From: Bolinopsis microptera
Lineage: Eukaryota; Ctenophora; Tentaculata; Lobata; Bolinopsidae
Direction of reading: 5' to 3'
DNA: 64,000 bases
Assembly: GCF_026151205.1 (NCBI RefSeq)
Contig: NC_087079.1
Location: 9,910,635 to 9,974,634 of the forward strand
Of this stretch, positions 22,630 to 54,396 are shown in pieces. Positions within the stretch are counted from its first letter, which is position 1; each line of letters begins with the position of its first letter. The notes below the pieces were generated by a model. The model was not told the origin of the DNA. It did no database searches and saw only the letters and a list, made by a program, of their open reading frames with translations. The translations under genes were made by a program, and so were the position numbers.

Positions 22630-23890
22630 GTACAAATCAAATCAAATCAAATCAAAATATAATGACACAAACATCATCACACATCATCAAAAATATATCT
22701 ACTAAAGTTTTAAAAATATCTTAAATCTATTGGCCTAAACAACCAAGATAAAATGAATCTAATTTACATACTTTCCACTACTATGTAAGTTAATAAAGCG
22801 TTTCTTAGCAACATGAGGATGACACACAAGATATTCATTGTGCTTCTCTTTATTAGTAGCATAATTTAATCCCTCAATCTTTCCTAATACTTCGTCCGAA
22901 ACATACCAAAAATGAATATCATTTACGGATCCGTTTAAAATAGTCTCTTTTTTGAAAGCCTCTAATCTTATTTTAAAACTTAACACAGTCCCACAATTCT
23001 TGACATCCGAGGGGAGTTTGTTCCAATATGGTCTCACCCTCTCCGGAAGAAAAGAACTGTGGACTTTCTTCATTTTACTGCTACTTTTACTGCATCTACT
23101 GTTTGATACCAAATTAAGACCAGATCTGCTCATACTGAACAAACCAGCTCCGTAATTGGCCAAACCACTTATCATTTTAAAAGATTCAATGAGGTCCCCA
23201 CGTATTCGCCGCTCTGCCAGCGTTGTCAAATTGAGGATTTCCAGTCGACGACTGTATGGAAGAGTACCCACCTCGTCAATCAGACGGGTAAACCGCCTCT
23301 GGACGCTCTCCAGCTGCAAGATGATCCCCCAACTTCCATGAGCCGCAACTGGACTCCACAATTGAACAAAATTCTCTAAATGGGGTCTTATTAAAGCTTT
23401 GTAAATGGATATCATCACAGATTTTTCCCTGATAATCAGATTTCTAACAATCCAACATATCATTCTGTTGGCTTTAGATATTGAAGCCTTAATCTGTTCA
23501 TTCCAAAGCAGAGAGTTATGGGTTATAACTCCCAAGTCTTTTTCCTGTACAGATTCTGCCAATGTAACTCCATTAAGAGAATAACTTGATCTTGGGTTAT
23601 CGTTAACATCTAAATGCATTACTGAACACTTAGTAGGATTAAACTTTAAAAGCCATTTACTCTCCCACATCTCTAGTTCGTTCAGATCATTAGCTATAGT
23701 TTCATGCTCGGAGGCATTAGCTATAAGCTTAAGATCATCAGCAAATATTTTAACTTTACTTTTAATGTTATCTGGTAAATCATTAATAAATAACACAAAT
23801 AGTAATGGTCCAAGGACTGATCCCTGGGGAACTCCTGACCATACAATCTTCCACTCTTTACTACTCCTCCTAGTTATAGTGGGCACAGTC
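22630..23890 (-). CDS. LINE reverse transcriptase ORF, 5'-truncated, with tandem-repeat 3' tail
   Basis: A 375-residue minus-strand open frame (22759-23886) begins just before reverse transcriptase motif B (WSGVPQGSVLGPLLFVLFIN) and includes motif C FADDLKL, the thumb (WESKWLLKFNPTKCSVMHLD, EKDLGVITHNSLLW) and the usual C-terminal region (RFTRLIDEVGTLPYSRRLEI, PYWNKLPSDVKN). The 3' end is followed by a GATTT tandem tail (22634-22657 on the plus strand as CAAAT repeats), as in CR1/L2-type LINEs. The N-terminal domains are missing, which is the normal result of incomplete reverse transcription. The open frame suggests a rather young copy. Confidence 0.85.
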
Positions 23891-24198
23891 AGTTATTAAA
23901 ATCTTACATCTGGACATAACTCCGGCCATTTTACACATCAGTCTCGATATTATGATTCCTCATATTTGGAGACATTTTGGAGACATTGTCTCCATGGGAA
24001 TTTCATGGGAATTGGAGGGGAATTAGAGGGGAATTACGTATTATTGATATTTAAGCACTTAAATTAGCTGTATATGGCTTAACTGAGTTCTGGTCTGTCC
24101 CTCAAACAAACTAAGACCTTTCACATGCGAAAAGAAGACAAAAAGGGGGGTGGGGAACCATATTTGCCAAAAAAATATGTCAAAATTTTGTTTTCCAT

Positions 24199-26657: not shown

Positions 26658-28318
26658 TAAGCCGAAAATCTGGCTTTGAAATATGGATGTCTCCAAAAAA
26701 TTCCCATGGATTCCAAAATGTCTCCAATTTTTTACAAAATCTTTTCAAGTCATTTTGAATGTTGGGAACCCGGATTTCTGCAACGGATCGCACTTGTACT
26801 ACCTCTATGCAACTCACCCACACCAATTTGGGCATGTCCCAGCCAACTAAAGCCGAAAATCTGGCTTTGAAATCTCAAATTTGAAAACACCCGAAAATGC
26901 CCCTTTTCGGCCCATTTTTTGGCCCATTTTCCCCCCTGAAGGCCCCAAATAACTGGTAACGTACTTCCAGGTCAACCAGGGTGCCAACCAAACTCATTGG
27001 AGACGTTTTAGGGCGAAATATGGATGTCTCCAAAAAATTCCCATGGATTCCAAAATGTCTCCAATTTTTTACAAAATCTTTTCAAGTCATTTTGAATGTT
27101 GGGAAACCGGATTTCTGCAACGGATCACACTTGTACTACCTCTATGCAACTCACCCACACCAATTTGGGCATGTCCCAGCCAATTAAAGCCGAAAATCTG
27201 GCTTTGAAATCTCAAATTTGAAAACACCCGAAAATGCCCCTTTTCGGCCCATTTTTCGGCCCATTTTCCCCCCTGAAGGCCCCAAATAACTGGTAACGTA
27301 CTTCCAGGTCAACCAGGGTGCCAACCAAACTCATTGGAGACGTTTTAGGGCGAAATATGGATGTCTCCAAAAAATTCCCATGGATTCCAAAATGTCTCCA
27401 ATTTTTTACAAAATCTTTTCAAGTCATTTTGAATGTTGGGAACCCGGATTTCTGCAACGGATCACACTTGTACTACCTCTATGCAACTCACCCACACCAA
27501 TTTGGGCATGTCCCAGCCAACTAAAGCCGAAAATCTGGCTTTGAAATCTCAAATTTGAAAACACCCGAAAATGCCCCTTTTCGGCCCATTTTCCCCCCTG
27601 AAGGCCCCAAATAACTGGTAACGTACTTCCAGATCAACCAGGGTGCCAACCAAACTCATTGGAGACGTTTTAGGGCGAAATATGGATGTCTCCAAAAAAT
27701 TCCCATGGATTCCAAAATGTCTCCAATTTTTTACAAAATCTTTTCAAGTCATTTTGAATGTTGGGAACCCGGATTTCTGCAACGGATCACACTTGTACTA
27801 CCTCTATGCAACTCACCCACACCAATTTGGGCATGTCCCAGCCAACTAAAGCCGAAAATCTGGCTTTGAAATCTCAAATTTGAAAACACCCGAAAATGCC
27901 CCTTTTCGGCCCATTTTTCGGCCCATTTTCCCCCTGAAGGCCCCAAATAACTGGTAACGTACTTCCAGATCAACCAGGGTGCCAACCAAACTCATTGGAG
28001 ACGTTTTAGGGCGAAATATGGATGTCTCCAAAAAATTCCCATGGATTCCAAAATGTCTCCAATTTTTTATAAAATCTTTTCAAGTCATTTTGAATGTTGG
28101 GAACCCGGATTTCTGCAACGGATCACACTTGTACTACCTCTATGCAACTCACCCACACCAATTTGGGCATGTCCCAGCCAATTAAAGCCGAAAATCTGGC
28201 TTTGAAATCTCAAATTTGAAAACACCCGAAAATGCCCCTTTTCGGCCCATTTTTCGGCCCATTTTCCCCCCTGAAGGCCCCAAATAACTGGTAACGTACT
28301 TTCAGATCTACCAGGGTG
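26658..28318. repeat. 337-bp satellite, block B (inverted, about 5 copies)
   Basis: The same unit in the opposite orientation. Landmarks are at 26981, 27318, 27643 and 27979, giving spacings of 337, 325 and 336. One copy has lost one CGGCCCATTTTT block. The first inverted copy is truncated: it jumps from the CTGGCTTTGAAA end directly to ATATGGATGTCTCC. The junction with block A at about 26657 makes a large head-to-head inverted repeat. Confidence 0.93.
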
Positions 28319-28992
28319 GCAACTTTAAATGTCCTCCCTGGTGTATTAGCACAGTTACAATTTCTTTTTATCTTGGAAATCCGGTTCCCAACTATGTTTT
28401 TCGATGAATTTAAGAATTAAAATTTTTGGCATATTTCACCTTCACTATCCTTTTTCACCGGTTCAAAACACTTTCCTGTCATATTAGAACTAATAATTGT
28501 AAGATATATCAGTTTTAGGCTGTTTTGGGCGAAATCTGAAATTGAGAAAATGTCTCCATTTTGAGGAATCATTATATGTCAGTCTCCCGCGCGCGAACGC
28601 CGCGTGCATCAAGAATGAGTAAAGTTTACATTGCGCTACACCACGCGTGTTTTTAATTTAAAAAAGGAGAAATTATACTGGCGGGAAGTTTTTCGTCCAC
28701 CTCTAACCCACTACTTCCGTCAGATAGCTGATAAGGGGAAATCCGACTACTGGGCTAGCAAACTCGTAAGTTTGGTGTATGCTAGTTAGTTTTTGTAGAA
28801 ACGGAGTCAAATCAATCTCAAGACAAGGATTTCATTTCAAACCTTTCAAGGTACCCTACAACGTACTACTCATTAGTTTTGCTTGTAAACTTGTTGGATC
28901 CTTGATTGCCTAACATGTTGAAACATTCTCCGAGATATCTTCAGTGTAATATATTTGTAAACTGTAACAAAATCCAGGCGGAAGTTCGAGCA
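28319..28992. promoter_or_regulatory. Probable promoter and 5' UTR region of topoisomerase II
   Basis: This 670-bp gap between the satellite and the topoisomerase II start holds a local CpG-rich stretch (CCCGCGCGCGAACGCCGCG near 28588-28606), unusual for this AT-rich window. It is a plausible promoter or start region, but no core promoter motif can be fixed. An in-frame ATG at 28906 would add 29 residues that do not look like topoisomerase. Confidence 0.4.
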
Positions 28993-31900
28993 ATGTCGTC
29001 ATCTGATGAAGCAGCTTCGGCGGCTCCCAAGGGCAAGGCCAAACCCGGGAACAAACGCATGAGCATCGAGCGTATATATCAGAAGAAAACCCAGCTGGAA
29101 CACATTTTGCTGAGACCGGACACTTATATTGGGTCCTCTGAGTCTTACAATCAGGTTCGTTTCAAATTCACATTTGTAGTAGTAGTGCAGTAAAAATAGC
29201 AGAATTAGATATAAATTTGGAGCCAGTTCTTTAAACTGGCTTACTTATACTACTTAAAGGGTGTTCAAGGGTTTTCTATTGAATTTCTATTGAATTTTAT
29301 ATAGGGTAATTGTTATATTATGTGTATATTGTTTGAATAATTTTTTAATTTCAAATTCACATAATTTCAATAGTTAGTAAGGATACTGGGATAATGGATG
29401 TCTAGTAGTCACTTCTGCCAGCTGCCTAATTATATAATATGCCAAAAGCATATTATATAATTAAAATAACTAATTCACAGCAAATGTGGGTCTACGATGA
29501 GGGTATCGGTTTTAACTTTCGTGATGTAAGCTACGTCCCTGGACTCTACAAGATATTTGATGAGATTCTTGTCAATGCGTCTGACAACAAACAGAGAGAC
29601 CCTAATATGAAGCGGATCAAGATTGACATATCACCGTAAGTTTCTCATTACTTACTTCTTACTTATTTAGCTTCCATTCTTGATTCTTGGATAGAATTAT
29701 TTAACAGTTATCCGGTAGCCGCGACAACAAAAACAGTTGTCATAACAATGATTTAAACAAGTATCTGACTTAACTCGAAAATCTTTACAGGGAAGATGGC
29801 AAGATCTGTATTATGAATGACGGCAAAGGAATCCCGGTTGAAATGCACAAGGAGCACGAAATGTTTGTACCAACCTTAATATTTGGACATCTTCTCACCT
29901 CGTCGAACTACGACGATTCTCAGAAGAAGGTAAATTAATCGTAAAACTGGCTCTGATTTAGATCAGACATGTCAACACCCGCGGCTAATCCGGTAACTTT
30001 AAACTCAAAGGATATGTTTTAGAACTCTCGTACTGAAAGTTTCTTAAGAATATTTGAACCTAAATAAGACAGAATAAATAAGGGTTTACAAAATTAGAAA
30101 ACAAATATCCATTATTTAAGGTAACAAGTGAAGAAGCTCTAAACCCGAATTTATGTGTCTCTCATTAACTCTTATCAGTTTAATTAACCTTCAGGTGACT
30201 GGCGGAAGGAACGGTTTTGGAGCTAAACTGTGTAACGTTTTCAGTAAGAGCTTTCTGGTAGAAACATCTAGTAAAAGTAGTGGAAAGTAAGTTATTTTAT
30301 AACCTTGTTGTATTTTGAACATCAAGTTTTTAATTATTATCAACATTATTATTAGACATTTGCAAAGTATCGAGTATGATTATTATCATTGAATACAATT
30401 TAATTATTCGAACCGGACTTCAGGTATTTTAAACAAGAGTGGAAGGATAATATGAGTAAAGCTGGTAAAATCACCACAGCCACCAATAAAGCTACCGACT
30501 TTACAAGGGTGAGAATGAGCAACATTTGGGGGTGCAGGGGAGAGAAGTTTACCTAAATGGCAGATTATACAAAACTTGACTTAGTAAGTCACAGTCTTAA
30601 CTTAGTCCCAGGTGTCAATGAATGGCAGATTTCTAAGTCATAAGTAAACCCAAAGTAATTATCACTTTATTCCCTCAGATAACGTTTTATCCTGATTTGG
30701 CGAAGTTTGGTATGACCATGCTTGAGCGGGACACAGTGGCCCTGATGAAACGTAGAGCTTACGACATTGCTGCTACTAGCCCTGGTGTCACGGTGGGTTC
30801 ACGGCTGGTTTTGTTAGTTAGTTTGAATGTTAAATGAGACTGATAACTAAATCGTCAGATGATAATTATGTTAGCTTAAATCGACTTCACTTTTCCTCTT
30901 TTTAGTATTATTAGCTAACGTTATTCGTTAATTAAACCTTCGCAAAAGAGCAAAAGCTGTCCACGCAAACGCTTAACTAATTCTACAATCTCAAAGGTTG
31001 AATTGAACGGGGAGAAGCTTCCTATCAAGACATTCAGGGACTATTGTAACTTGTACATAAACGCGAGCAAGACTGACGAGGCGGACGAAGAGAATAAGAA
31101 ATTGAGTCTAGTGTACGAGAAAGTCAACCCTCGGTGGGAGGTTAGTTATTTTTATCCTACTCTCGCTACATCTCCCCTACATCTTCCCTACATATTCCCT
31201 ACATATTCCCTACATCCTCCCTAAATCTTCCCCACATCTTCCCTACATCTTCCTTAAATTTCTAACACTATAATCTGTTCGTCTGGCTGCGGGGAGAAAA
31301 AAATACTTTCGAGGAAATAATAATTTGAAATATCTCAGATTGCACTGGGTACAAGTCAAAAAGGGTTCCAACAAGTCTCCTTCGTCAACTCCATTGCAAC
31401 CACCAAGGGTGGCACCCACGTCGACTACGTTTCTCAACAAGTCGTCACTAAAATCCTGGCTGCTTGCCAGAAGAAGGTCCAGTTTTTGATGTTTACCGTT
31501 CAAATTTTACATCGTTTACTACGACTGCAGTTCGTGGTGATGCGCTCATTTATTCGACCATGAATTTAATTTTTGACCACAGAATGTCACCGAGATTCCA
31601 CTCACTCTTCATAAGTTCAGAAGTAGGAACTACGACTGAAGTAGGAACTATGACAGAAGTAGGAACTATGACTGAAGTAGGAACTATGACAGAAGTAGGA
31701 ACTATGACTGAAGTAGGAACTATGACATAAGTAGGAACTATGACTGAAGTAGGAACTCTGACTGAAGTAGGAACTATGACAGAAGTAGGAACTATGACAG
31801 AAGTAGGAACTATGACTGAAGTAGGAACTATGACTGAAGTAGGAACTATGACTGAAGTAGGAACTATGACTGAAGTAGGAACTATGACAGAAGTAGGAAC

Positions 31901-34900
31901 TATGACTGAAGTAGGAACTATGACAGAAGTAGGAACTATGACTGAAGTAGGAACTATGACTGAAGTAGGAACTATGACTGAAGTAGGAACTATGACTGAA
32001 GTAGGAACTATGACTGAAGTAGGAACTATGACTGAAGTAGGAACTATGACAGAAGTAGGAACTATGACAGAAATAGGAACTATGACTGAAGTAGGAACTA
32101 TGACAGAAGTAGGAACTATGACTGAAGTAGGAACTATGACTGAAGGAGGAACTATGACCGAATATCTGACAGTTCTTGTTCCAGGTACCTAAAGGTGGGG
32201 TGGAGATAAAGCCTGCTCAGGTTAAACAACACGTGTTTCTCTTTATTAACTCTCTTGTGGAGAACCCGGCTTTCGACTCTCAGACTAAGGAGAACATGAC
32301 CCTCAAAAAAAGTAAGCACCGATTTATTCTTATTAGGAGAAAAGATTCCACGGTAGTGGGACCTGGCAGTTTAAAGGTACAAAATAATAACAACGTTTGA
32401 TCGATGATAATAAAAATCAAATTAGACAATTATACGACATTCAAACAAGAACCCTATTTAAAAAAACTTCTTTACAAAACGTCATTACAAATTGAACCCT
32501 TTATTAATTTAAAATGTGTTATTAAAATCTTAATTGAACATTCCATTTGGTAATCCCAAGTAATATATATATATTATATATAATAATAGTTGTATAAACT
32601 TGATCCTTGATGACAGTTAGGTTGGTAATGGTTGATCACAGGGCGCTTGAACCTGTGAATAGGATGCCTCCCATTCAGTCCTGTCAGGTGGATTGGAGAG
32701 GAGGGAATCAAATGTGTATAAATCTCCAGTGTTGTTAGCCGGCTTGATGCCGAGCAGAGAACAGAACAGATTGTAAAGCTCCGTGTTCATCTTAAGAGGT
32801 CTGTCTTCAACTCCAGGCACCTCTCTAAACCCCGGACCAGACACCCTCGCGTGAGCGTACATTTTGGGGAATGTGTTGTCATATCCGTGGCCGCCAGCAA
32901 GATAGTCCCAGGATGATATCACCACACCATCATCCCCAATAAAGATAATATCCGGTAATCCCTCTTCCTCCAACCCACACATCTGAAACCTGTTGTCAAG
33001 AGCAGCCGTTTCAACAGCCGATAAACCAGTCATCCCACTACTTTGCAGGAACCGGTTCAAATCTCTAACGTCCTCGGCTACACTTCTGTTTTGTTTCGAG
33101 TACCACCAAGGAACTTCCCCTTGGTAAAACAACTTAGCTTTGTCTCTGATCAACTTTGGAAGTTGGTATCTCCGTTTGTGGCTAGTCATCCCATGATCAG
33201 ATGTTATAATCAGGTTGTACTTCCTGTTGCCTAATGCTGATTTCAGTAGACTGATCCTTCTCTCCGCAAGGTCTATTATCTCCTGAACAGTTTCATTATC
33301 AGTGTTATCATTCCTGTGGAGCGAGTGATCCGGTTCGTTCGAGTATAACATGTACAAATCACACCTCGTCCTGTAATCTCCATCCATGTTCTCAACCAGT
33401 CCCTGAACTGTCTGCTCAAAAGTATGAACACGATACCCGAACTCTATGTCCGGGATTAGTCCGCCGTAGTCAGCGCCCGATCCTACCCACGTGTCGATGT
33501 AAGACCTTAAACCAGCTTTTTTGGCAGTGACCCAAATCGGTTCTCCTTTGAACCAATCAAAGTCCTCGTTTTGATTATCCTCGTACCGAAACTTGAGGTT
33601 CCTTTTTTGGTTGTAAAACCCGTTGTTGACAATTCCATGCTGGGTGGGGTACAGACCCGTGGCTATTGACATGAAGTTAGGAAAGGTTTTTGTAGGGAAA
33701 ACTGGTTGAATAGGGAATATGTTGGAATCTCCCGAAGTTTTATTACCATACTGTAGATAATGTTGGTGGGAGTAGCCATCTACACCAAAGATGATAAGAG
33801 GAACTCTTTCGTCGACCACGCTTTTCGCTAACACATTTTTTATCAGGAGAACATAAAAGATGAGTCCTAACATCTTTTTAAACAAACAAGGATCAAATTG
33901 TTTAACGTTACAAGAAAAGAGAAAAAATTCTAATCGATTATTTCCTTATATTATTTCTTTATTCATGATTAGCCAATAATTGAAATATTGAATTAAGTGA
34001 TAAGGGGTCATTCACATGTACTTCGTAATCACTGAGAAAGGGGGTTTCCAACGCTTATGAAATTTTATCAAAATAGATATTAGATATGTGTAATACTGAT
34101 TATGGAGGGAGAGGGGGTTACAAATTAGCCAAAAATTTATTACGTAATAATATAGGAACAACCCGCTTTTGGTCGATATTTTTAAGGATCCCGTGAAAGA
34201 TTAGCTGATAATTAAATTGTCCACTGAACTGGAAACAAGAAGTAGAAAGTTTTTTCGTCGAATACTTTCAAAATGTTCCCCATCTGAAAAAGTCCGTGTT
34301 GAGAATTCGAAAACAAAATTGACACCAGAATGTGAAGCATCACCATTCCGGAAAGTACTAGAACCGGTAGGAACCCTCTCAGCTGCTTCCCCGGTAGACA
34401 CGATCCTTGTAGAGCAGGCAGTCCAAAGAAATAGCGGACAGATCTGGACTTGGTGATGAGGTAGGACTTGGTGATGGAGAAGAAGGAAGTGATGATCAGC
34501 ATGACTGGAAAGGTTCGGAGGTAAGGGATCCACATCGCAGCCGCACCGAACATCACATTAAACTGTTGGTGAATTAGGTATAAGGGCATGGCCATCATTC
34601 TGTATCTTGAGTGCCAGTCTTGTGGTAACGTGAACGTCTTCCTTGTCCATGCTGTAGATCCCATCAGAAAGAGCCAGGACCCTATCCCTCGAAGGAACCC
34701 CATGGCTAGTGGCTACATCCCGCAATGAACTGGCGAGCACCGTAAAGTAGCACATTCACAACGCACAAAACAGTCCCAATCAAGATACAAGTCCGAGACC
34801 AAACTTTGCCGTCCTGTCTTATCTGTTTGTCTGCTGCTCTTGTTACATAACCAAGTACAAAAAAAGCCATCTAGGGAAAGAAAGGGAACGATCGAAAGAC

Positions 34901-37900
34901 CCAAGCGTATTCTGGAAAGGGGATCACTCGCTCAAAGGGGATGAGTAAGAAGGAGCGAAGAAAGCCAGGCTGTAAGGGAACTGAAGAACTGCAGACATGA
35001 ACAGAGTGGGCACCAGGAGACGGTGCAGCCTCTCTGTTCTAAACTGAGTCTCCGTTCTTCGCAGCAGAGCCGAGTACACGTTCTGTCCGGATAGGTAGAA
35101 GAACATTGGCATGATTTAGGTATGCATAAATGCAGCAAACCAAAGTATATAATGGGGGGGGGGGGGGGGGTCAACCTCATTTTACCTCATGAGGCCAGCC
35201 AAAAAAGGCAAAATTGGGATGAGGTAAAATGAGGTAAAATGAGGTAAATAAATCTAGTTTTCTAAGCCTTTTTTTAGAGACAAAAAAGGTTTATTCGAAG
35301 TCATTATACTATAATTCGAGGCTGTGCATGGTCTCCCATGATATTTAATGGTTTATTAGGGGTGATGTGGTCCCTGGGAAGAGGCATTCCCAGTTTAACC
35401 TACTTACTCTCCAAACTTGGGGTAAATAAAACTTCGCATTATAATTATTATTTATGAAAAGAAAATTGAACATTTCAATTTCCATGATCCATTAGGATAT
35501 TGTTTATAGCACTTGCTAAGTTTTGTAAAGGAATTAGCAATAACTTTATTGTCACTTTGGCAGTTGCCAATTTATGGGGATATTTCCGCATTGCATGACA
35601 TGGACCATTTAAATAATATCTTAATTTGATATTGCGATTATCGAGTCACTCTGAAACAAATTGTGTCTAACTAGACCAAATGTAAACAACAGTTGTGCAT
35701 GGAACTGGATTGGATATCTACATGAATTTAGTCGAAATTGCATAGTGAAAGGTCATTTCATAATAAATTTCTCATATAAACTCATACTTCATACAATTCT
35801 AAGTTCTTATGTACATGTTCAATGTTCATGATTCGCTGTAGAATATAGGGCGGTTCACAAAACCACTTTTCGTTCAAATAATTAGATATCACCTCCAATT
35901 AGTTGCTCCATAGGGTCAGGAACAACCAAAAAAATGTTTGTGTCTCTACGGTTTCGTATAATACTGACTTGGGCCACGCCCATATTTTTCACCAATTTTT
36001 AACAGGTAAAATTGTCTAAATCGTCAATTTAGTCACGAAGGAGTATGGAAGGAGATCTAAATGTGTGCTCCTCTAATATAAACAGTAGCAAATGGTTAAC
36101 TTTAGTCGAGGTTTCAGGTCTCTACAATGTCGGGAAGTTCCTGCAGGAATTTTTGCATTGCGCTGAAGCGCAAGATCCACAGCGCTAAAAGCGAAGGTCG
36201 TAGAGACATGAGACCTTGACTAAAGTTAACCATTTCATACCATTGCTATGAGAGTATGCCACTTTCAGAGTCCTGAACACACTCCCATTATATCTCTTAA
36301 TCGTCAATTATATGAATTTTACCTGTTAAAATATATCATCTTTAACTGATATCAATTTAGTTTAACACTGTTAGTTTTAAAAAAGAACATAATACTTCAC
36401 ACCAAACTAACGCACAATATGGTAATATAAAAAAGGAAGGTTTTCCTTGGATTCCAAATTCAACTTTGATTATAATATCCTGGCACTGATTATCATTTCT
36501 CGATTGTAATCCATTTTCCAATGCAGTCAGCAAGTTCCAATTTAGGTAGACTAGGTTTTCGCATCTTCATATTATGTTCAGAAGCAGGCCAGAAGGGGTT
36601 GTTACCAGAGGAATATCTTCTTGGAACAAGGGAATTAATGAGGTCTTCATTTATTTGGGAAGTTGGTCGTTTAGCTCCGGACAGTCTATGCACGGTCCCT
36701 GCACGGTCCATGCAACAACAAGAGAACACTCCATGCACGGTTCCTGCACAATGAACACTTGATGCACGGTCCCTGCACGGTCAGTCCCTGCACACTCCCT
36801 GCACGGTATATGCACGGTCCCTGCACGGTCCCTGCACAGTAACATATGAACACTAGCCGGCTAGTAGCCACTTTTGTAACAACAGCTCCTCAACTTCACA
36901 TTACCAAACCGGCTACTAACCGGCACTTAAAAAGTGGTCACTACTAGCCGGCTAGTGACCACAAAGTGGCTACTAACCGGCTACTAGGCGGTCACTAGCC
37001 GGCGATTAGCTGAGCTCTAAAGCAGACCTACCGGCTACTAACCTACTAAGCAGACCTACTACGTAGGTCTACTTTAGAGCCAAGCTAATAGCCGGCTAGT
37101 GACCGGTTAGTAGCCGCAGGGAGTGTGCAGGGACTGACCGTGCAGAGACTGTGCATGGAGTGTTCTCTTGTTGTTGTATGGACCGTGCAGGGACCGTGCA
37201 TAGACTGTCCGGAGCTAAACGACCAACTTGCCATTTATTTCTTCATAACTCGTCACTGACAGTCCGGACAGGATGAGCATTGACGAGATCCACTGATTAC
37301 TTCATAGCTCGTCATTGAAAGGATCAGTATTAAATGAGGTCGAATGATTACTTCATAGCTCGTCACTAACTGGATCAGCATAACATGACTAACAACTAAC
37401 GAGGTCCAGTGATCTTTTGCTGATACGTCAAGACAATATCAGTAAATAGCTATAAATATCGAAAAAAATTAGCTTAGAAATTACAGAGTACAAATGCCTT
37501 CTTTACAACTAACTCTTTGGCCTCATCTTTTTAAATCACTCATTCCCTCTGAAACAAGATAATGCTTAGGACTAGGAGGAACTTAGTTAACTTCTTGTAT
37601 GATTCAGTAACAGGAAAATTCCTTAGTAAGCTAACATTCTTTTGCAGGATGTTACCACTTATCATATCTGTTATCCAGCATAATCCCACAACTAGACTCT
37701 CTTATTCTTGAGTCTTGACAATGACAGCAGCAATGTACACTATTTTGATGCTCGGTCCAGGTCTCCAAGAAAACCTTCCTTTTTATATTCTCATATTGTG
37801 TGTTAGTTTGGTGTGAAGTATTATTTTCTTTTTTTAAACTAACAGTGTTAAACTAAATTTATATCAGTTAAAGATGATATATTTTAACAGGTAAAATTCA

Positions 37901-40900
37901 TATAATTGACGATTAAGAGATATGGGAGTGTGTTCAGGACTCTGAAAGTGGCATACTCTCATAGCAATGGTATGAAATGGTTAACTTTAGTCAAGGTCTC
38001 ATGTCTCTACGACCTTCGCTTTTGGCGCTGTGAATCTTGCGCTTCAAGAGCAATACGCAAATTCCTGCAGGAACTTCCCGACATTGTAGAGACTTGAGAC
38101 CTCGAATAAAGTTAACCATTTCCTACTGTTTATATTAGAGGAGCACACATTTAGATCTCCTTCCATACTCCTTCGTGACTAAATTGACGATTTAGAGAAT
38201 TTTACCTGTTAAAAATTTGTGCCGAGATTTACCTCATTTTACCTCATGAGGCCAGCCAAAAAAGGCAAAATTGGGATGAGGTAAAATGAGGTAAAATGAG
38301 GTTGACCCCCCCCCCCCCTATAATAGTGAGAATTCCTAAGTTGTTATTCTCTGTCAAAGGAATCCAGGCATGTAAAAAATCTGGGACAAAGCGTAGAATA
38401 TAACTAGGAGAGATGACAGTGAATTGGTTTTCATCCGGCCCTTTATCTGTCTCCAAATCTTTATATGGAAACTTGAACCAATAATTTCCGAAAGGTATGT
38501 AGATCATACAGATGTGGGTAAAATAAACACAGTACGTTAAAAATATCATGATTTCATCAATATACAATATCAGCTCTACTTCCTAGATCAATATCCACAG
38601 GCTGTTTCTCTGACGTGGTCGTCTTGTCCGAATCTAGCGTGGCTTCTTCAGCGATGTTCTTGGGCGAACTTGGGTTGTTGCTTTCTTCCAGACATAATCT
38701 TCTGGACATATTCTATAACTGCATGACATGTTATTTACTTTATTTGAAATATAGTTGAAATATAGACCACACCCGGGACTCCACTGTCACAACAATTAAA
38801 CCGCGTATCAGTTATCGCTGGTCGATCTAAAAAACCTTTAACTACATTATTTCGTCAGAGTTTTGTCGACACTATAAAAACACGAATTCAAATGTTTTTT
38901 ACTCTCCAAACGACACTAAACTAAAAACAGCAACTAAACAGTCACACAAACGTGTCGAAGGAAGTAATGCAATAAAATACAATGATTAGTTATAGAGCGC
39001 GCTGATCTAGAGCCACTTAAGAACTAGTAAGTAGTATGAGTAGTAGACTATCTAAGTGGCGATATTATGTAAAGTTAGCTTTTGCTATTATCGTATTACA
39101 GTGTTCAAATCTGAAGAAAGACTGTATGAAATATATGATACTTAAAATATCCCGTGGCTATTGAATTTAATTTCAATGAAAATTAAATAATCTTACACAC
39201 GAAAATATGAACATAAGCCGTGAATAACGGCTGAGTGGAGAGAGCTATTCAGATTTGTAAGATCTGAAACCCTCCCAGATAAATTCGGTTCGACCTGCGA
39301 ACCCTCGGACAGGTTCATGAAGGACATCTTAAAAACAGGCGTGTTAGACTATGTCATGGACTGGGCTACTACAAAATCTCAGAGGCAACTCCAGCAGAAA
39401 TCAGCGGGGAAGAAGGGCTCCAAGATAAAAGGGGAGGCTAAACTGTCGGACGCTAAGGATGCTGGTACTGCTCGTAGTAAGGTACACTGTTTTAAGAGAT
39501 AGGATTTCTGATCCTGTCAGTTGCTTGTTTTCTTTCTTGAAATTAAGAAATGGTGTGCTGTTATACATAATCTAGTTGTATTGCAGAATGCAGATAATTA
39601 CAACATTGTATGATATAATTAGAATTGCAACTTTTCGAATCTTTTAAATATTATATACATTAGCAAATATTTCAGTTATAATTTTAACAGATTTTTGACA
39701 TTTTCTGTTTACCAGGACTGTACATTGATCCTAACCGAGGGAGATTCAGCTAAAACCCTAGCAATTGCCGGGTTAGGTGTGATTGGTAAGGACAAGTTCG
39801 GTGTCTTTCCACTCCGGGGCAAACTCCTTAACGTTAGGGAGGCTTCTCACAAACAGGTTTGTCGGAGGGTTACTTAATTCATTAATTTATTTATTTATCT
39901 GATAATTAATTTATTAATTCAATTTTTTTGTTCACATTTTATTTTCCGTGCAAGACTAAAAGTCTTTGAGATTTAAAATTGATTTTGACATGCAGGCAGC
40001 GAACTTTTTTTTGATTTATCACGTTGTCAGACTACTGAAATTGGGGTGCAGTTCTTTAATTAAAATATTATTTGTATATAACTTTATTTGTAAATTTGTC
40101 ATTAGAACTACCGGCACCGTCCGGACAACAAACAAATATTAGACCAAATCATGAGTGAAAAAAAAAGATGATATGTACCAATAACTATTAAAAGTTTATA
40201 AACACAATTTACGGCCATGAAACTGAAAGAAAAACTATTGAAATCGAAATTATCAGACACTCACTTATTTTATGAATTTCACATAGGGCCATTATCAAAT
40301 AAACACTAAAACACTAAAAGACCCAATATCATCATCTCAAAAGTTTCTCTCGCCTAGACACCTTCCACACAACCCCTTCCTAACGAGTCCAACAAATACC
40401 ACTCTGATAGAGTTGGTAGTGAGGATGTAAGCTAGCGGGGATATCCCCACCACAACCTGCAGAGTAGCGTAGAACAAATCAAACACCAGGGTCAGACTGT
40501 TGTTCTGTTCTAAACTCTCTGTCAGCTCCGTGCTGTACAACATCACAAAGGCCCAGGGGAGAGTGGTAGTTACAGTGATCAGGAGTGTGACTAGGATGGA
40601 CCAGGGGATGGTTGATCTCTCTGTTGCCTCCGTGTGATTTCCAGACTTCTCTGTCTTGATCTCTGAGGTGGAGGTGAGACATGACTCGGTGAGGCGTCTG
40701 TGAGACTTCCTGGCCCGCACTGCTATCTGGTAAATGTAGACGTAGAGCCCCACAGTTCCCATGATGGGAACACCGAACCCAACACAGAGGAGAACCCCGC
40801 TAAACACCCTACAAGAGGGTGTCTTCAGATCTCCGTAGCTGCAATACTCGTACTTATAAGTGGACCTCATCCTGGTCCCACACACTCCTATACTGGGTAA

Positions 40901-43900
40901 ACAAGCTATAAGACCAGCTATCACCACGGATATCACCAGTCCTATCACCTGGTTACGCATCTTCAGGTAGTGCATGTAACTTAGCGGTACCGTCACAAAG
41001 ATACTCCTCACAACAGTGATGATCAGGATACAATACCCTGGCAGAACCATCGCGAACGTTTGAAACACCAGTTTTACCGCACATCTCCGTTCAGACTCCC
41101 CCTGTCGGACTATCTCCAGCAACCAGGAAGAGGTAATGACGAGGAGGAGGAGGAGTTGGCAGACCAGGTAGAAGATAACTGAGAGGTAAAGGTCGGAGAG
41201 TTTCCTGAAGTGTTGGCTGGTAATGTGGAGGATTGTTGTGCTGAATAATATTAGGGAAATGTAGCTGGGGATGCAGACGCTGGAGCTGATCCAGAGGCCC
41301 ATTTTAAATGGATTTGGGTAATCGTAGATCATGGGTGTCTCCATCATTATAGGCGTCTCACTCTCCATCATATGTGTCTCCATTCTGAAGAGTTAGCGAC
41401 TTTTACCGCGTATTGAACTTCACATATCAAACATCTTTAAGAAACGTAAATGTTAATAACTAATCTACGAGACAAGTATGTAATGGCAGGAGAGGAAGTA
41501 TCATGTTATAATGGTGTGTAATACAGTGCTACTCTGATAGTACGGTTAAATGTCTTCTGGCGAGAACCAAAGCCGCCCAAGACGTAAACGCAACTAGTAA
41601 GGACTCCTCGAATCCTCTCAAGATATGAAGTCACATAATGTGTAGGAAAACAAGGTGCTGATTATGGTGTTTTACTCCTTTTATCTGACCCGCCATAGTT
41701 GTGAGACTGGTCACCGGTCAGTGAGGTTACTGGTAATGGCGGGTCGTTAAGAAATTGCTGATAATTGCAGGCATTATATATTTAACCGAACATGGTATTC
41801 AGAGCAAAGCGTTCCTACAGCTCATCTGTAAGGATGCTAATGATTTGGTGTGATAATATGTTCGAGAAATTAAATCACGTGTCTTTATTCATTTATTTGG
41901 GATAAAATATCTTATATATGTAGTTATGTTGCGCAAAACTATCAAAGATAAAAAGGTCTGAATAAGAAGCCTGAAATAAAGTCTCAACAGTATTTAAACT
42001 TACATTAAATCAGCTCTACTGTCGTTGTACAGCATTGGACGGGTAAAATATAAAACATGGACTGTTATTAAATGTGATTCTCAAAACGAATTGTAGCCCT
42101 CCAAGGAATGGGGACTAGTGACTTGTCCACTTATTGGTTTCTCTGTTTCTGATATAACCCCTAAATTATGCTCGCTCGTGCAGTAAATAACCCGTGGCAG
42201 GTGAACTTGTTTTTATATTAGTTGATATCATATTGTCGTATCCTCAGAAACGTGCACCGCAAAATAAAATCACCCTGCACCCACCCAGGCAACCTCACCT
42301 CCTCAGTTGAACACTCTCTTCCCTTTCAGATAATGGAGAACGCGGAGCTAACAAGTATGGTGAAGATACTGGGACTGAAGTACGGAAAGAAATACGAAAC
42401 ATCTGCTGATATCGCTACTATGAGATACGGCAAGATCATGATTATGGCGGATCAGGATGTGGTAAGATGACGTGCAGATTTTATTTAATCAGCAAAACGA
42501 TGCTATATTAATTTTCTTCTTCTAAAGCGAATTTGAATAAGCGTTTGAATTTATAGACAAATCTAGCTTGATCTTAAGCGTAATATCTATTGTCTGTTAT
42601 CTATAGTTACAGCTTAACTGACTTAGCTACATATTTACTGACTTAAAAACTACCGAAAGCTCATCACCAATTCTTAGAAAAAGTAACAAAATGAACTTGG
42701 CAGGACGGTTCCCACATCAAGGGTCTAATAATTAACTTTGTTCACCACAACTGGCCCAGTCTGCTGAAGATGAACTTTATTACTCAGTTCATCACTCCCA
42801 TCATTAGGGCGTCTTGTAAAGGTAACTTGCAATTTAGTAAAATATAGCTGTTTAGTTTCCTAATATTCTATTCATAGCAACTATCTTCCCGGGTCGTCTC
42901 AAAGTGTTTATTCGCTGCGTTGTCCTGCTTGGGTGTTTTTGAAATCACAATTTTCCTTGGCGACTGGAAATGGTATAAATTAAGATATCAGATTTGTAAT
43001 CGGAAATGTTTCAGGCAAACCCACTCATTCATTCTACTCCCTGCCCGAATTCAAAGAATGGAAAGATGAACAGACTAATATCAAACAGTGGAACATTAAA
43101 TACTACAAAGGTTTTTATTTTTCATCTTTACAGAAAGATGCAAATTATCATTATTATTTAAAACCACGAATCGCTACTCTTCAGAGAATTCTTGGAAAAT
43201 TTGGAACTGACAAATATTTTCTTTATCTTCTTTCAATCCAGGTCTCGGAACTTCAACTGGTCCTGAAGCGAAAGAATACTTTTCTGATATGGGTAGACAT
43301 AAGATAAGATTCAGGTAATTTGTGACCTGCTGCAGTACTCTTGCCTATGTCTAGTTTAATGGGGGGGGGGGGGGATTTTTTTTGTGAAACTTGGTTTCGA
43401 GATAGCAGTTGACTAACAAACTAGGACCGGTGACCGAACTTTTGAGGGGGTCCCAGACCCCAACCGCCAAACGGTGCCCGCGGGGCAGCCACGCCCATAT
43501 TTGGTCCAAATTAGGCCCAATTCAGCCAAATACCCTGAACATGCCCAAAATCCAGATTTTAGGTGCTCTACTTGTAGCTAGTGGTCCCCTGAACTCGTAT
43601 ATGAATTTTCGTCAAGATTGGACAAAAAATGACTGAGTTATGAGCCAAAAACCATATGACCATATTTGGGCATACGCACCAAATTTGATCGATTTTGGCC
43701 CATAAATTGGTCAAATATCAATATTTTTGAATGAAACCAACTTTATATAGAAGGTAAGCCTATACTACACATTATTTATGATTATCAGCTCAGTATCTAC
43801 CTAACTGTGGATTCTGTGTTCAAATAATCGCAAAAAAATGAATAAAATCGCCGATATCTCAGTTCACGATATTTGCAAATCTGATTTCGCTCAAAACAAT

Positions 43901-46900
43901 AGAACTCAATAGGGTTTCAATATTTTTTCATGAAATTTTCATAATCAACGTAGAATGGCATTTCAACCTTAAGTTTTGGACAGAATTTTGAGTTAGGCCT
44001 TTTTGCATTGCAAATTTTGGAATTTGGCCGCCAAATGCAATTCTACGTTGATTCTGAAAATTTCATGTAAAAATATTGAAGTATTTGGTTAAATTGGGCC
44101 TAATTTGGACCAAATATGGGCTTGGCTGCCCCGCGGGCACCGTTTGGCGGTTGGGGTCCGGGACCCCCTCAAAAGTTCGGTCACCGGTCCTAGTTTGTTG
44201 GTCAACTGTTATCTCGAAACCAAGTTTCACAAAACTTGGTTTAATGCTTCCATTTAAGCTATTCATTTTAAAGGTTCCATCATAGAATCTCAGGTTTAAG
44301 TATTTGATTTAAAGATTTTACTCACTAGATAAGACTCGTTTAATCTGAAAATGACTGCAAATATTCTCTCCCGTCAGGTATGTTGGAATGGAAGACGATC
44401 AGAAGATTCAGATGGCTTTTACTAAGAAGCAGGTTGAAGCTCGTAAGGATTGGCTTACTCAGGGAATGTTGGAGAGGAGAGAGCGGAGAGCAGCTGGTGA
44501 GTTTCTTAGTTAGTAACTCTAGTTACCAGCATGGTTACTAGCCTAGTTACTAACACAATTAGTAACCAAGTTACTGACTTAGTTGTTAACTTAATCACGT
44601 TGCTACCAACCAATACACTAACTTAACTATTAACTTAATGATTAACCTAGTTGCAAATAACTTATCAGAAGCTGATATAGTTCAACCCACTAAGTAACTA
44701 GACAACTAGCATACTACCCAGAACCCTTCCAACTACCAACTAATATACTAATTCCTAGGTGAGAGTGAACTGTATCTCTACCACAAAACTCAAACTGCTG
44801 TAACCTACACAGAGTTCATTGACAGAGAGTTGATTCTCTTCAGTAACTATGACAACGAGCGCAGTATTCCCTGTATTATGGACGGATTTAAACCTGCCCA
44901 GAGGAAGGTCATGTTTACCTGCTTTAAGAGGTGAGTTTTATTGATATCTCAAGATTATAGGTCAATTGTCGTACTAAGCTCTAGATTTCGCGACAATTGA
45001 CCCCAGTGTAATTACATAGGGGGTCAATTGTCGGGGGTCAATTGTCGCGGTACCATGTCAGACATTGTTGGTTGCTGTGAATTGTGATGACAGTGAATCT
45101 TTCTAACAATGTTTTGTGTTTCAGGAATCTCAAGAAGGAGATAAAAGTAGCGCAGTTGGTAGGAAGTGCCTCTGAAATATCAGGGTACCATCACGGTGAA
45201 CAGAGTCTTGCTGGCACTATTGTCAACCTCGCTCAAAACTTTGTGGGCTCTAACAATCTCAACCTTCTCGAACCAAATGGTACGTTTGATTTTAAACAAA
45301 AATCTTATGAAATGATTTTAGTTCAATATTACTGGTTTTTCTTTACTCCGTTGACCGTTTACCCGATGGTTGAAGTTTAGTTTGATAATGTATAGTATAC
45401 ATATATTATATAATAATTGAAATATTGTATACAATATTACTTTATGGAAACTTGAGACGTATACATTGTATACGTCTCAAGTTTCCATAAAGTAATATTG
45501 TCAAAACTGCTGTCCTACAGATGTTGAGTATATTGGTCAGAATGTTGCAGTTTAACATGTTTGTAACTTTATTAGTCCGTACATAATAATAAACTATTCC
45601 AGGGCAGTTTGGTACGCGACTAAGTGGAGGTAGCGATAGCGCGGCCCCTCGTTACATCTTTACGTGCTTATCTCCCCTTGCGCGGCTCTGCTTCCCCACA
45701 GTAGATGACAACATCCTCCAGTCCATCTGGGATGATAACAAGAAGGTGGAACCTGTCTGGTAGGTTGTTTTCCGTTAGTCTTATCAATCCCTTTTTTTAT
45801 TTCTGCCTCAGATTTTATGCTCCTGCTTATAGTATTACTATCGGACCTGAAGGTAGCAGACGTATGAATGATTAAGCTTGTGAATTTCAATATTACATAA
45901 AAACAAAATTAACAAGAATAATATTGATTTTATATTTCTATACTACTCCCACACTATTCTCATTTCTCAAACTAACTTTGTTCCAGGTACGCCCCTATAA
46001 TCCCCATGTGTCTAGTAAACGGTGGTCAAGGTATCGGTACTGGCTACTCCACCTTCATCCCCAACTTCTCCGTCAAGGAAATCATCGAGAACACCAAGCG
46101 GCTCATCAAGGGACAGGAGTACCAGGAGATGTATCCTTCATACCGGAATCATACCGGTCAAATGGTGAAAGTAGACGAGCAGAAGTATCTGAGCGTGGGT
46201 AAGATAATGAGGACAGCTAACTCCAAATTCCAGATCCTTGAACTGCCTGTTGGGACTTGGACTCAGAATTATATAGAGAAGCACATGATGCTGTTTGCGG
46301 AGGGGAACGAGAAGCTTCAGCCGATTTTCAAGGATTATTCGGATGATAACACGGATGAGATTGTTAAGTTCAACATTACAGGTAACTTGTAATGTTACAC
46401 ACTTGTTTACACTTAGTGCCGAGATCTTGTAATTGATGCTGACACATACTCGTGAAAACGGAGTACTTCTAAGCACACTTTGTTCTGACCGATTGCAGGG
46501 CACAATAAATTGATATCCTGCTATTAACAGCGGAACCAAGTGACATCAACAAATGGGAGAGAGAAGGAATTCACACCAAACTAAAGTTGACATCGGCCAT
46601 TAATCTGACCAACATGGTCATGCACGATCAGCACGGTGTTTTAAGAAAGTACGAATCTCCTAAAGAGGTCATGGAAGACTTCTATCCAGCCAGGTTATAT
46701 TTTAAACTGTTTTACACCGGAACTTCTGAAGGTTCAAATTTGTGATTTAGTGAACACGACAGAAGTTCTATATCTAAGATATTTTCAATAGGTAATAGGT
46801 ATACTAATGTGAACGAAAAAGATTACCGGGGTCAAGACTTGAACTTGCACACCTTGCGGCGTCTGACCCTTAATCAGAATTGTTAACGATGATATCTTGA

Positions 46901-49900
46901 CATAATTAAACTATGACGACTTGATCCGTTTAAAGCTATATTAATATTTCGTTTGATATCTAGTTATATCTTGCCTCGATATCGATGATGGCATCCTTTG
47001 ATAAACTCTGTTATTGGTAATAAGAGGAGATGATGTCAGGATCTTTTCGTTAAAAAGATAAACTCACCCCAAAACTCACTCCCATACTAACATCTCGGGA
47101 AGATATAGACAGCATCTCAACCTGGGATTATTGATCGTTAACAAGATAGAAAATCCAATTATCTTCACTAAACCTGAGACCTGGGGTATATATAATATAA
47201 GGATCTAGATAGTATCCAAAACTTCCCCGGGGTGGCGGAATTGGTAGACGCATCTGATTAAGGGTCAGGCGCCGCAAGGAATGCAAGTTCAAGTCTTGTC
47301 CCCGGTAATCTTTTTCGTTCACATTAGTATACCTATTACCTATTGAAAATATCTTAGATAAAGTGTTCCACTGCTTTTACTGAAAGAAAGCTGGGGTTAT
47401 GGTCAAACATGCAACTTTTAGTTTTAGTAGGTTAAGCTGTTATTTGCAGGTACCCGATTAACAAACTGCATTTTCTGTAATACATGTTTGTAATACTGTA
47501 ATTTCATTTCAGGTTGGCAATTTATGTTAAAAGGAAAGATTTCCTGGTCGGGAAATTCGAGGCCGAAGCTAACCAACTTCTAAACAAAGCGAGGTTCATC
47601 GTCGAAAAAATAGAGGGTAAAATCAAAGTTGAGAACGTAAAGCACAGAGACCTGATTGCTGTTTTGTTAAAGCGAGGGTTTGACAGCGACCCGATGAAGA
47701 AATGGCAAACTGCCCACGATAAGCTCATGAACTCGAACCCCGAGGAAGTACCAGTGGAAGGTGATGAAGAGGAGAACTCCGAAGAGGAGAGTCCAGAAGA
47801 AAACCTCTCTCAACCAGGCGACCCTAACTACGACTACCTGATCGACATGTCCATCAGAACTCTGACTCTAGAGCGAAAGAATGCACTTGAGAAGAAACGT
47901 GACGAGAAATTGGCCGAGTTAGAGGAACTGAAGAACACTCCAGTTTCAAAACTGTGGTTGAACGATATCAAGGAGCTGGAGGAGGGATTGAAGAAGTATG
48001 CAATTGACCTGGCGAAGAAGCAAGCCCAGTCTGCAAAGCGGATGAAGCAGACAAGTACAAAGAAATACGTTAACAACTATGCTGATGATTTGGGTAAATT
48101 TATTTTACATTTCTGACTGAACTGACGATGTTCTAAATTTGAATCATCTTAATGTTTGGGAATTACCATATGATGGTCATAATCACCCGTTGTTTATAAG
48201 TTGACAGTGAATTTCGCAGTAAATTTAATGCGAGTTTAGACTTATAACCTGGTACATTTCAGGAGAAGAGGTCAGATTTAAGGTACCTATTGAAACAGTG
48301 AAAGTGAAACGAGAGCCTAAAGTCAAGAAAGAACCCACTGAACCGAAAGCACCAAAAGCACCAGCAGTGAAGAAAGAAAAGAAGGAAGCAAATGGTGAAC
48401 CTCAACCTATGTCTCTAGCGGATAGGATGAAGAAAAAGCGCAAGAGCTCACCGATGAAGCCTAAGAAGAATCCATGGGAGACAGACAGCGAAGAGGATGA
48501 TGATATATCAGACTTCAGTGGCGTATCAGGCGAGGAATCTGATGAAGATTTCAGACCAGTTACAAAGAAAGCTAAGTCAGCCACCAACGGGGCTGCTCTC
48601 AAGCTTGAGCCTGATATTAGCTTAGGTAAATCAATTTAACATTTTACACTTTTAAATTTTGTCACGTTCTTTTTTCTTCAGATTCGAGGGGATCGAGGTT
48701 ACATTTATTTATTCATTTTATTTCTGAAACAATTTTTCTCAATTTTAGATTCGACTATGGACGACACGGAAGACTCCTTTTCTCTAAACGATAATAAGAG
48801 TGCACCTGTTAAAAAAGAAACTATTTCTCTGGGTTAGTAACAGCGTGGGCTAATACTTTATTTCAAACTTAAGATATAGACTAGAATAGATGTTCTTCTC
48901 CCCTTTACTTCTGGGAGAGCATATTTTTATTAGCCCTGAATACCTGAATGTCTGACGTCTGTATTGAAACTTCTGACAAAGCTACAAATTATAAAGCTCG
49001 TTTACATGTTTACTGTTAAAACTCCAACAATCTTATGTTTACGATCTGCTAATTACTGATCGTTAAGTTTACATATTTACGTCATAGTTAACGGGTGATT
49101 CTCGTAAAATATTTGTTTTAAATACAAGACCGTCGACGAGTCCAGCTCGGGGCGCGTCTTGGTAGGTTATAAACCTACAACGTCATAGCTAATTTTGATA
49201 CTTCTTCAGACGACACAGTTTCACCAGCTAAACCACCCCCACCTCCACTTAAGAAAGCGCCCGAAAATAAAGCTCCCGCAAATAAAGCTCCCGCAAATAA
49301 AGCTCCTGCCAAGAAGCCAGTTGCTAAGACCACCTCCAAGAAGATCACTGATTTTCTTTCCGGAGACTCAGATCAGGAACTGAAGAAGAAAGCTGCCCCA
49401 AAGAAGAAGCTAGGTCCCAGTACCTTGGGCGCTAAGAAACCCGCGGCTAAAGCCGCTCCCGCTAAGAAAGCCAAAAGTCCGTGGAGTGATTCAGACGATG
49501 AATCCCCGCAAACCAGCAAGAAATCTAAGGTAATCTGTCGGCAAACTTGTTAGGGATTGGCAATAGAAAATCAAAATTTTAATTAGTATTATTCGATCCA
49601 GCTTGAACGTCTTTATTTTTCCTTTAGAAGTTTACAGTTATTTTGTTCAGAGGGACTTCATTAAAGGCTTCACATTAATCACTCTCGGTAAACTATCATG
49701 CGGGAAAATTGTGGGAGTAATTCCATCTCAATAAGAATTAAGATTAGAGAAATAATGAATTAGACCTTCATTGGATATCACTCACCAATTATTCCATTTC
49801 AGAAGAAGATGTCTGACAGTGATGGAAGTGACTTCGACCTTGGTGAGTAATTATTATTTCTCGCTCTGTTCATAGGTGCAGATTTCGTTTTGAGGTGAAC

Positions 49901-52366: not shown

Positions 52367-54396
52367 TTAATTGTGTTTTAAACATGACAGGGACGAACAA
52401 GTTCGGACCTTGACCATGAAGACGATACCGACTGTAGGACCTGGCGGGAGTTTCAGCTCGTTCATAAGCTCGTCCAATTCTCCGTTACAGATGAAGTCTT
52501 TTCCTTCCGCGACAAGCTGAGACGAAAAAAGGTTAGACTTCAATCAGAATTGAGCTAATTTTCAATTTAATGTCCAAGTGATGTTTATTATAATAGAGTA
52601 TAATCAAATTTTATACGGCAAAACACAATAAAAAATTGTAAACAAAATTACTCAACGATCGCTTTAAGTTTAAGGTAACTCACCGCTCCTGTGACATCTT
52701 CTGTAGTTGAAGAAGGATCCTTCAATACTTCTGCTAAATGTTTAAAACATGTAAAGGACGAACAAGTTCGGACCTTGACCATGTAGACGATACCGACTGT
52801 AGGACCTGGCGGGAGTTTCAGCTCGTTCATAAGCTTGTCTAATTCTCCGTTACAGATGAAGTCTTTTCCTTCCGCGACAAGCTGAGACGAAAAAAGGTTA
52901 GACTAGATCCTTCAATCAGTTAATTTCCATGACCAATTTTATGTTCAAGTGCAATGTTTAATAGAATAGAGTAGAATCAAATGTTATACGCGGCAAAACA
53001 CAATTTGTTGATCGCTTTAAGGTAACTGAAACTCACCGCTCCTGTGATATCGTCTGTAGTTGAAGAAGGATCCTTCAATACTTCTGCTAAATGTTTTTCA
53101 GAAATGCTGAAGACAGACATTTTAGTTGCAAAATCTGTCAGCTATCATGTATCAGAATTTCAATTTCTTTAATTCTAAGATTCTTTAAACATTATTAGCA
53201 AGATTTTCCTCAGCGATAAACTTTCGCCGAGGAAAAAATGTTATAAATTTAGTACAACTACAATGAAGTTGGTGACCGAGTGTGCACCTGTGCTTACAGG
53301 AGGATGAACAAGTCTGAATCTTGACCATGAAGACGACCCCTACAGTGGGACCAGGGTGCAGGTTCAGTTCAAGCATCAGCCTGTCCAACTCTCCGTTGCA
53401 TATGAAGTCTTTTCCTTCTGCTTGGAGCTGAAGCGATTGAATAATTATTAAAGTTAAGTTACTATAGAAGTGAAATTTTAATTTGAGGCAGGGAATTGAG
53501 ACTTGAGACTAAATTACATAAACAGTTCACTAACTGCTCCAATTATATCCTCTTGAGTTGAAGATGGGTCTTTTAATACGTCTGCTATGTCTCTCTGTGA
53601 TAATCTGAAGAGTAAAGATTTCAATTAGTGAACGCAATAGACTAGTAGAGGAGCATTATCACTTTTATGAGTTATAGTCACTACTCCGCCAAAGCAACGC
53701 GTGACTACTCCGCCATTAAGCAACACGTCACTACTCCGCCAAAGCAACGCGTCACTACTCCGCCATTAAGCAACACGTCACTACTCCGCCATTAAGCAAC
53801 ACGTCACTACTCCGCCAAAGCAACACGTGGCTACTCCGCCATTAAGCAACACGTGACTACTCCGCCAAAGCAACGCGTGACTACTCCGCCATTAAGCAAC
53901 ACGTCACTACTCCGCCATTAAGCAACACGTCACTACTCCGCCATTAAGCAACACGTCACTACTCCGCCAAAGCAACACGTGACTACTCCGCCATTAAGCA
54001 ACACGTGACTACTCCGCCAAAGCAACGCGTGACTACTCCGCCATTAAGCAACGCGTGACTACTCCGCCATTAAGCAACGCGTGACTACTCCGCCAAAGTA
54101 ACGCGTGACTACTCCGCCAAAGCAACGCGTGACTACTCCGCCAAAGCAACGCGTGACTACTCCGCCAAAGCAACGCGTGACTACTCCGCCAAAGCAACGC
54201 GTGACTACTCCGCCAAAGCAACGCGTGACTACTCCGCCAAAGCAACGCGTGACTACTCCGCCATTAAGCAACACGTGACTATTTGGGATACAGTTTACAC
54301 ATGTTCTTCCTAAGATAGCCAATATGAATACGGCAATACTTACGGGCCTGACGCGACGAAAGCGATGATCGCAAAAATCACAACAAAAGCCTTCAT
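52367..54396 (-). CDS. Small secreted protein locus with three tandem module copies
   Basis: A family I do not recognise. Exon 1 (54344-54396) encodes a signal peptide, MKAFVVIFAIIAFVASG. Exon 2 (53535-53604) joins in phase and gives RDIADVLKDPSSTQEDIIGA. Exon 3 (53185-53430) gives LQAEGKDFICNGELDRLMLE, PGPTVGVVFMVKIQTC and a cysteine-rich tail ending at 53185. Further along the minus strand the module recurs: HLAEVLKDPSSTTDDITGA (about 53040-53112), EGKDFICNGELDKLMNELKL plus a fused HLAEVLKDPSSTTEDVTGA (52672-52880), and EGKDFICNGELDELMNELKL ending CSSLSCLKHN with a stop at 52367-52369. The later copies lack their own signal exon. They may be alternative 3' exons, an unfinished gene duplication, or pseudo-copies. 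The product is likely an extracellular small protein with a few cysteines. Confidence 0.6.
53678..54285. repeat. 25-28-bp minisatellite in the signal-exon intron
   Basis: Tandem units alternate between CACTACTCCGCCAAAGCAACGCGTGA-like and ATTAAGCAACACGTCA-like types. The array lies wholly between exons 1 and 2 of the secreted-protein gene. The last nine or so copies (about 54095-54255) are homogeneous, while the earlier part alternates. Each unit carries a CACGTG/ACGCGT-like core. Confidence 0.92.

Follow-up and report, generated by a model that had tools for sequence, protein, structure and literature searches.

The subject of this report is a 586-nt sequence block in the ctenophore Bolinopsis microptera, which resembles a miniature inverted-repeat transposable element (MITE) and carries tRNA-Leu sequence, by alignment of bacterial type, in its arms. 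It lies at 46773–47358 of a 64-kb stretch of contig NC_087079.1 (positions 9,910,635 to 9,974,634 of the forward strand); this whole stretch is called the window hereafter, and all coordinates refer to it. The element is framed by TA dinucleotides at 46771–46772 and 47359–47360 and resides in an intron of an animal-like topoisomerase II (TOP2) gene. The intron, on the plus strand at 46694–47512, has GT...AG borders and contains the entire element, which takes up 586 of its 819 nt. The upstream exon is open in the frame ...EDFYPA(R) to 46693, GT follows at 46694, and after ...TTTCAG, ending at 47512, the frame picks up LAIYVKRKDF... at 47513, being thus kept across the intron. The exon 3' of the intron matches PF00521 (E = 2.5e-11).

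Anatomy of the inverted repeat

The left arm (46771–46878) holds the 3' part of the tRNA and its 3' flank on the minus strand, and forms a repeat pair with the right arm (47253–47360, plus strand). Up to their TA ends the arms are 108 nt long with four mismatches, at 47269, 47280, 47281, and 47299. A sequence-only reading of this DNA had described TA-flanked inverted arms that share the tRNA 3' part and a common 3' flank, and the alignment of the arms bears this out; the position it gave corresponds to the element minus its two TA dinucleotides. At its full extent in the repeat search the pair covers 46768–46878 and 47253–47363 (111 nt, 95% complementary) and is the sole inverted pair reported in 46500–47700; in a self-BLAST of the window it reaches an E value of 1.1e-44, far beyond chance. 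From the outside to the inside, each arm consists of 53 nt of flank, including a T5 run, and then the tRNA-Leu 3' part. The four mismatches all fall within the 55 positions of the tRNA part, with 0/53 in the 3' flank; this distribution is not significant (Fisher p = 0.12), and the outer 53 bp are not claimed to be better conserved than the tRNA part.

The outer ends of the element read TCTAAGATATT..., the end sequence being also written TCTAAGATATTTTCAATAGG. The TA at both ends may represent a target-site duplication of just 2 nt, which is self-complementary. A longer target duplication seen by eye, AAGTTCTA / AAGTGTTCCA, was rejected, because site pairs drawn at random from the window do as well in 194 of 2000 cases. 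Nothing of transposase size is encoded in the element: its longest stop-free stretch in the six frames is 76 codons, and no open reading frame of at least 150 amino acids overlaps it. The unrelated interior (46879–47225) has no plasmid match, and 46700–47225 no phage match, at E 0.01, and descent of this part from bacterial or phage DNA was rejected on that basis. An inward continuation of the inverted repeat past the gap was likewise rejected, 317 of 1000 shuffles being as good. The one exception is an exact inverted 11-mer shared by 46880–46890 and 47134–47144, the former site adjoining the left arm on its inner side; the match is perhaps a junction trace of the making of that arm.

A tRNA-Leu of bacterial type

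When run on the whole window, ARAGORN found a single tRNA, a tRNA-Leu with the anticodon AAG at 47226–47307 on the plus strand, with the first acceptor pair mismatched and the variable arm partly broken. It scores 41 bits with the Rfam model RF00005, whose gathering score is 29. The right arm overlaps this tRNA, and beyond the inner end of the arm the tRNA is completed. No tRNA is found by ARAGORN in the left arm, where alignment places a tRNA-Leu 3' part running from the anticodon arm to the discriminator (46824–46878, minus strand); the left copy departs from the tRNA at the anticodon stem, with unrelated sequence beyond. At the expected place of the left 5' half, 27 nt, only 7 positions match, and 1153 of 2000 shuffles align as well. 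Decay of this half in place was rejected for that reason, and it is absent rather than decayed. The claim of the sequence-only reading that the tRNA is whole on the right side alone therefore stands; the bacterial type of the tRNA had escaped it.

In global alignment the best match is tRNA-Leu(UAG) of Providencia, identical to the tRNA of the element at 68 of 82 positions without a gap. It ranks ahead of 65 other distinct tRNAs from 46 fetched loci, most of which were fetched because they match, so that the ranking among bacteria is biased. A human cytosolic tRNA-Leu(AAG), not drawn from a database, takes rank 36 of 67, with an alignment score of 3.5 versus 54 for Providencia; each of the 21 distinct tRNA-Leu from bacteria or phages ranks higher. 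Judged by these alignments, the tRNA is of bacterial type, closer to bacterial tRNA-Leu than to the human one compared, which speaks against an ordinary cytosolic tRNA gene of the host as the captured sequence; in this tRNA the locus is unusual. The Providencia gene (loci L001 and L003–L008) is equal in length minus its CCA; it differs in its anticodon UAG, in its acceptor and anticodon stems, in the encoded CCA, and in the tRNA cluster that surrounds it. The tRNA of the element has 57% G+C and no encoded CCA, unlike most bacterial copies compared. Its acceptor, GCCGGGG...CCCCGGTA, agrees, the first base excepted, with that of a bacterial tRNA-Leu(CAA) (locus L020).

The database searches point in the same direction. 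With the whole element as the query, the 15 rows listed of 71 records of the plasmid collection are all on the tRNA, the best listed being from Providencia (86.7% over 75 nt, E = 2e-15). Of the E. coli genomes 5363/5426 match, the eight matches listed having 84–87% identity over 68–75 nt. Among the phages, the 20 listed of 348 records show 71–80%, below Providencia; identity of at least 99% is found in 117 of the 348, and as at least 80% of the query is covered in six of the 348, these 117 are taken for short pieces. A Providencia-type match (87% over 75 nt) tops all four genome draws, each of which was centred on, and contained, a genome that is itself Providencia (G001). Matches were found in 3 of 246 genomes in the family draw (E <= 1e-16), 34 of 394 in the order draw (E <= 1e-15), 16 of 369 in the class draw (E <= 1e-8), and 44 of 398 in the phylum draw (E <= 1e-11), with the runner-up at 83% in the class draw and at 85–86% in the order and phylum draws. 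Other bacterial phyla were covered only through the plasmids, the phages, and a pattern search of 84,980 species. In the latter, the pattern GCCGCAAGGNNTGCAAGTTCAAGTCTTGNCNCCNG, which spans the variable arm, T-arm, and acceptor and is fitted by both arms, occurs at six loci, all of Providencia; its acceptor positions had been left open on purpose to admit the Providencia sequence already seen. The exact words in common with Providencia are 29 nt long for the left arm (locus L003) and 19 nt for the right arm.

The anticodon AAG is unusual on tRNA-Leu in bacteria. A viral origin of the AAG tRNA was considered and rejected, since viral tRNA-Leu(AAG) score 25 and 34 versus 54 for Providencia; a stricter tRNA pattern and a Providencia-type pattern also have no match in the viral contigs. 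It is worth mentioning that bacterial-type tRNA-Leu(AAG) do occur in three of these contigs (L044:589-677, L045:6295-6381, and L046:105-191), the tRNA of L045 being equal to that of L046.

The differences between the two arms can be polarised in part by comparison with the bacterial tRNA-Leu. The bacterial TG at 47280–47281 survives in the left arm and has become AA in the right, and at 47299 it is the right arm that retains the bacterial T, against A in the left. Position 47269 is not polarisable: the right arm has the bacterial letter, and that of the left arm completes a pair of the anticodon stem. Because each arm has private changes, neither can have been freshly copied from the other; their common ancestor was nearer the bacterial gene, and each arm has been worn since. 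This history is compatible with a terminal repeat in which tRNA sequence was already present and, equally, with an old local inverted duplication.

Putative signals for RNA polymerase III (Pol III) were sought with consensus patterns. An A-box-like sequence lies in the tRNA at 47233–47244 and a B-box-like core at 47287–47295, both on the plus strand, and a T5 run that may serve as a terminator follows at 47311–47315, 3 nt past the tRNA end. The left arm retains, on its minus strand, the B box (from 46844) and the T5 run (from 46820), and the A-box pattern is not matched on the minus strand of 46701–47225. In the window the A-box pattern has six matches on both strands, which makes it weak alone, and the B-box pattern has 21. 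Together, A box, B box, and T5 run make it possible that the right arm forms a Pol III unit. According to PMC3945056, bacterial tRNA genes likewise carry A- and B-box-like sequences.

Origin of the element

The reading favoured here, with a probability of about one half, is that of a MITE-like, TA-flanked non-autonomous DNA element inserted in the TOP2 intron, whose arms include part of a bacterial-type tRNA-Leu. Its terminal inverted repeats would have an outer portion of about 53 bp and, inside it, part of a bacterial-type tRNA-Leu gene with a tRNA-Leu(UAG)-like backbone and an anticodon that is now AAG. The tRNA would have been captured from bacterial DNA, directly or via another vector. 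An ancestral arm with the tRNA 3' part may then have given rise to both arms, which later diverged at 4 of 108 sites; the whole tRNA is reached from the right arm only, and the left arm would have been truncated or partly copied. The element was most likely moved by a transposase acting in trans, which would have inserted it at a TA site with the tRNA as a passenger, and Pol III may transcribe the right copy. In favour of this reading, the arms end exactly in TA, the element is short, and the flanking exons are in frame. It also fits the proposal of the sequence-only reading, by which a tRNA gene may have been captured by a DNA transposon and doubled as a terminal inverted repeat; the spreading of tRNA-like sequences, which that reading adds, would be a further step. 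A wider scenario is doubtful: a bacterial tRNA-Leu gene would have reached the animal genome and become part of the terminal repeats of a DNA transposon, whose multiplication as a MITE family would be supplying the nuclear genome with mobile tRNA units of bacterial type that have a Pol III promoter.

Several observations weigh against the favoured reading. The evidence comes from this single locus: the self-BLAST shows no further copy within the window, and those exact words of the arms that were searched for did not turn up in 2.9 million viral contigs or in 84,980 prokaryote genomes. In an AT-rich intron, TA at the repeat ends speaks only weakly for a target-site duplication, and the ends of the element are not known to resemble those of any family. 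The tRNA itself is worn. Its minimum-energy fold differs from a cloverleaf and has no more stability than those of shuffles (z = -0.16), and its 41 bits with RF00005, for which the control genomes were prokaryotes only, compare with 55.6 for the corresponding Providencia tRNA. As the cloverleaf is worn, the tRNA probably has no present role in translation. The best bacterial match reaches just 83% over the full tRNA and has a different acceptor stem, and so points to no particular donor. The eukaryotic yardstick was the one human sequence, and the collections compared were prokaryote genomes, plasmids, phages, and viral contigs.

The main alternative, a tentative one, is a local inverted duplication within the TOP2 intron, by template switch or fold-back repair and without transposition. 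The intron would already have contained a fragment of bacterial-type tRNA along with its flank, and the 3' part of that fragment together with 53 bp of flank would have been copied in reverse 374 nt away. Only one copy is known; the left arm ends abruptly within the tRNA, at the anticodon stem, like a broken copy; the 11-mer at its inner end (46880), which recurs inverted at 47134, could be the junction; and the terminal TA may be due to chance. Both repeat ends nevertheless fall exactly on TA, a separate event is needed to bring the bacterial-type tRNA into the intron, and the private changes in both arms show that such a duplication would not be recent.

The source of the tRNA is a separate matter, and it is here that an organelle comes into question, either the mitochondrion of an animal whose mitochondrial tRNAs are bacterial-like or the plastid of an alga, symbiotic or eaten; such a source, compatible with either account of the element, is unlikely. 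Organelle tRNAs are likewise of bacterial type, transfer of organelle DNA into nuclear genomes is far more frequent than that of bacterial DNA, and the lack of an encoded CCA would suit this origin. It is opposed by the 57% G+C, by the exact 29-nt word common with Providencia, and by the top place of Providencia in the genome draws, though these were centred on a Providencia genome. That the tRNA belongs to a tRNA-derived short interspersed nuclear element (SINE), or represents one of the host's ordinary cytosolic tRNA-Leu(AAG) genes or pseudogenes, placed by chance in an inverted repeat, is very improbable. AAG is the usual eukaryotic anticodon for tRNA-Leu, and the tRNA head expected of a SINE is present, with the patterns of both boxes, A and B; a T run is present as well. 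The tRNA is, however, much closer to bacterial tRNA-Leu (54 versus 3.5 for the human sequence), no retro-tail is seen, the element terminating instead in an inverted arm, and the target duplication of about 7–20 nt typical of SINEs is lacking, the longer candidate not being above chance.

Known systems and other features of the window

Like the Stowaway or Tc1-mariner-type MITEs, the TOP2-intron element is short, lacks a long open reading frame, has terminal inverted repeats and TA ends, and is intronic; unlike them, it holds tRNA sequence in its arms, and its ends are not known to match the terminal motifs of these families. MER6, a mariner-derived MITE, also bears sequence of another repeat class (PMC6887750). 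Its cargo is the conserved domain of V-SINEs, and the abstract of that paper mentions no bacterial-type tRNA in terminal repeats. With the tRNA-derived SINEs (PMC8450103) the element shares a tRNA with an internal Pol III promoter (here by pattern) within a repeat; it differs from them in the bacterial type of the tRNA and the inverted arms, and no retro-tail is seen. A whole tRNA and a 3' fragment at opposite ends of an insertion are also known from bacterial tRNA-targeted genomic islands, in which, however, the copies are direct repeats; those of the element have opposite orientations and remain alike for 53 bp outside the tRNA. Neither a tRNA inside MITE arms nor a bacterial tRNA in an animal transposon is described in any title or abstract listed from the open-licence literature, which is weak evidence of absence. 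Should further copies exist, a bacterial tRNA gene would have been turned into transposon ends in an animal, and both reading by Pol III and charging by the host leucyl-tRNA synthetase would arise as questions; tRNA gene counts in such genomes would perhaps be inflated by DNA transposons, besides SINEs.

The gene content of the window is eukaryotic and animal-like, with Pfam families matched by 6 of the 10 open reading frames scanned. These are the topoisomerase II exon adjoining the element, a rhodopsin-type receptor, C2H2 zinc fingers, a phosphodiesterase/pyrophosphatase, and two reverse transcriptases of retrotransposons (PF00078, at 12639–14555 and 22759–23892). The window also contains other repeats. 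A second inverted repeat, at 43380–43533 and 44081–44234, has 154-nt arms that are 96% alike and outer ends reading TTTTGTGAAACTTGG...; it is not among the window matches of the TOP2-intron element. A further inverted pair, at 35990–36451 and 37764–38221, has arms of about 460 nt that are 95% alike; they span 2.2 kb and may belong to a larger terminal-repeat element or to a duplication. In the tandem array at 24194–28323 the copies are 337 bp apart, and a strand switch near 26650–26678 makes it a large inverted pair of arrays. Minisatellite-like arrays are present at 31618–32162 and 53677–54281, the first being open in several frames, with the repeating units VGTMTE or SVIVPT.

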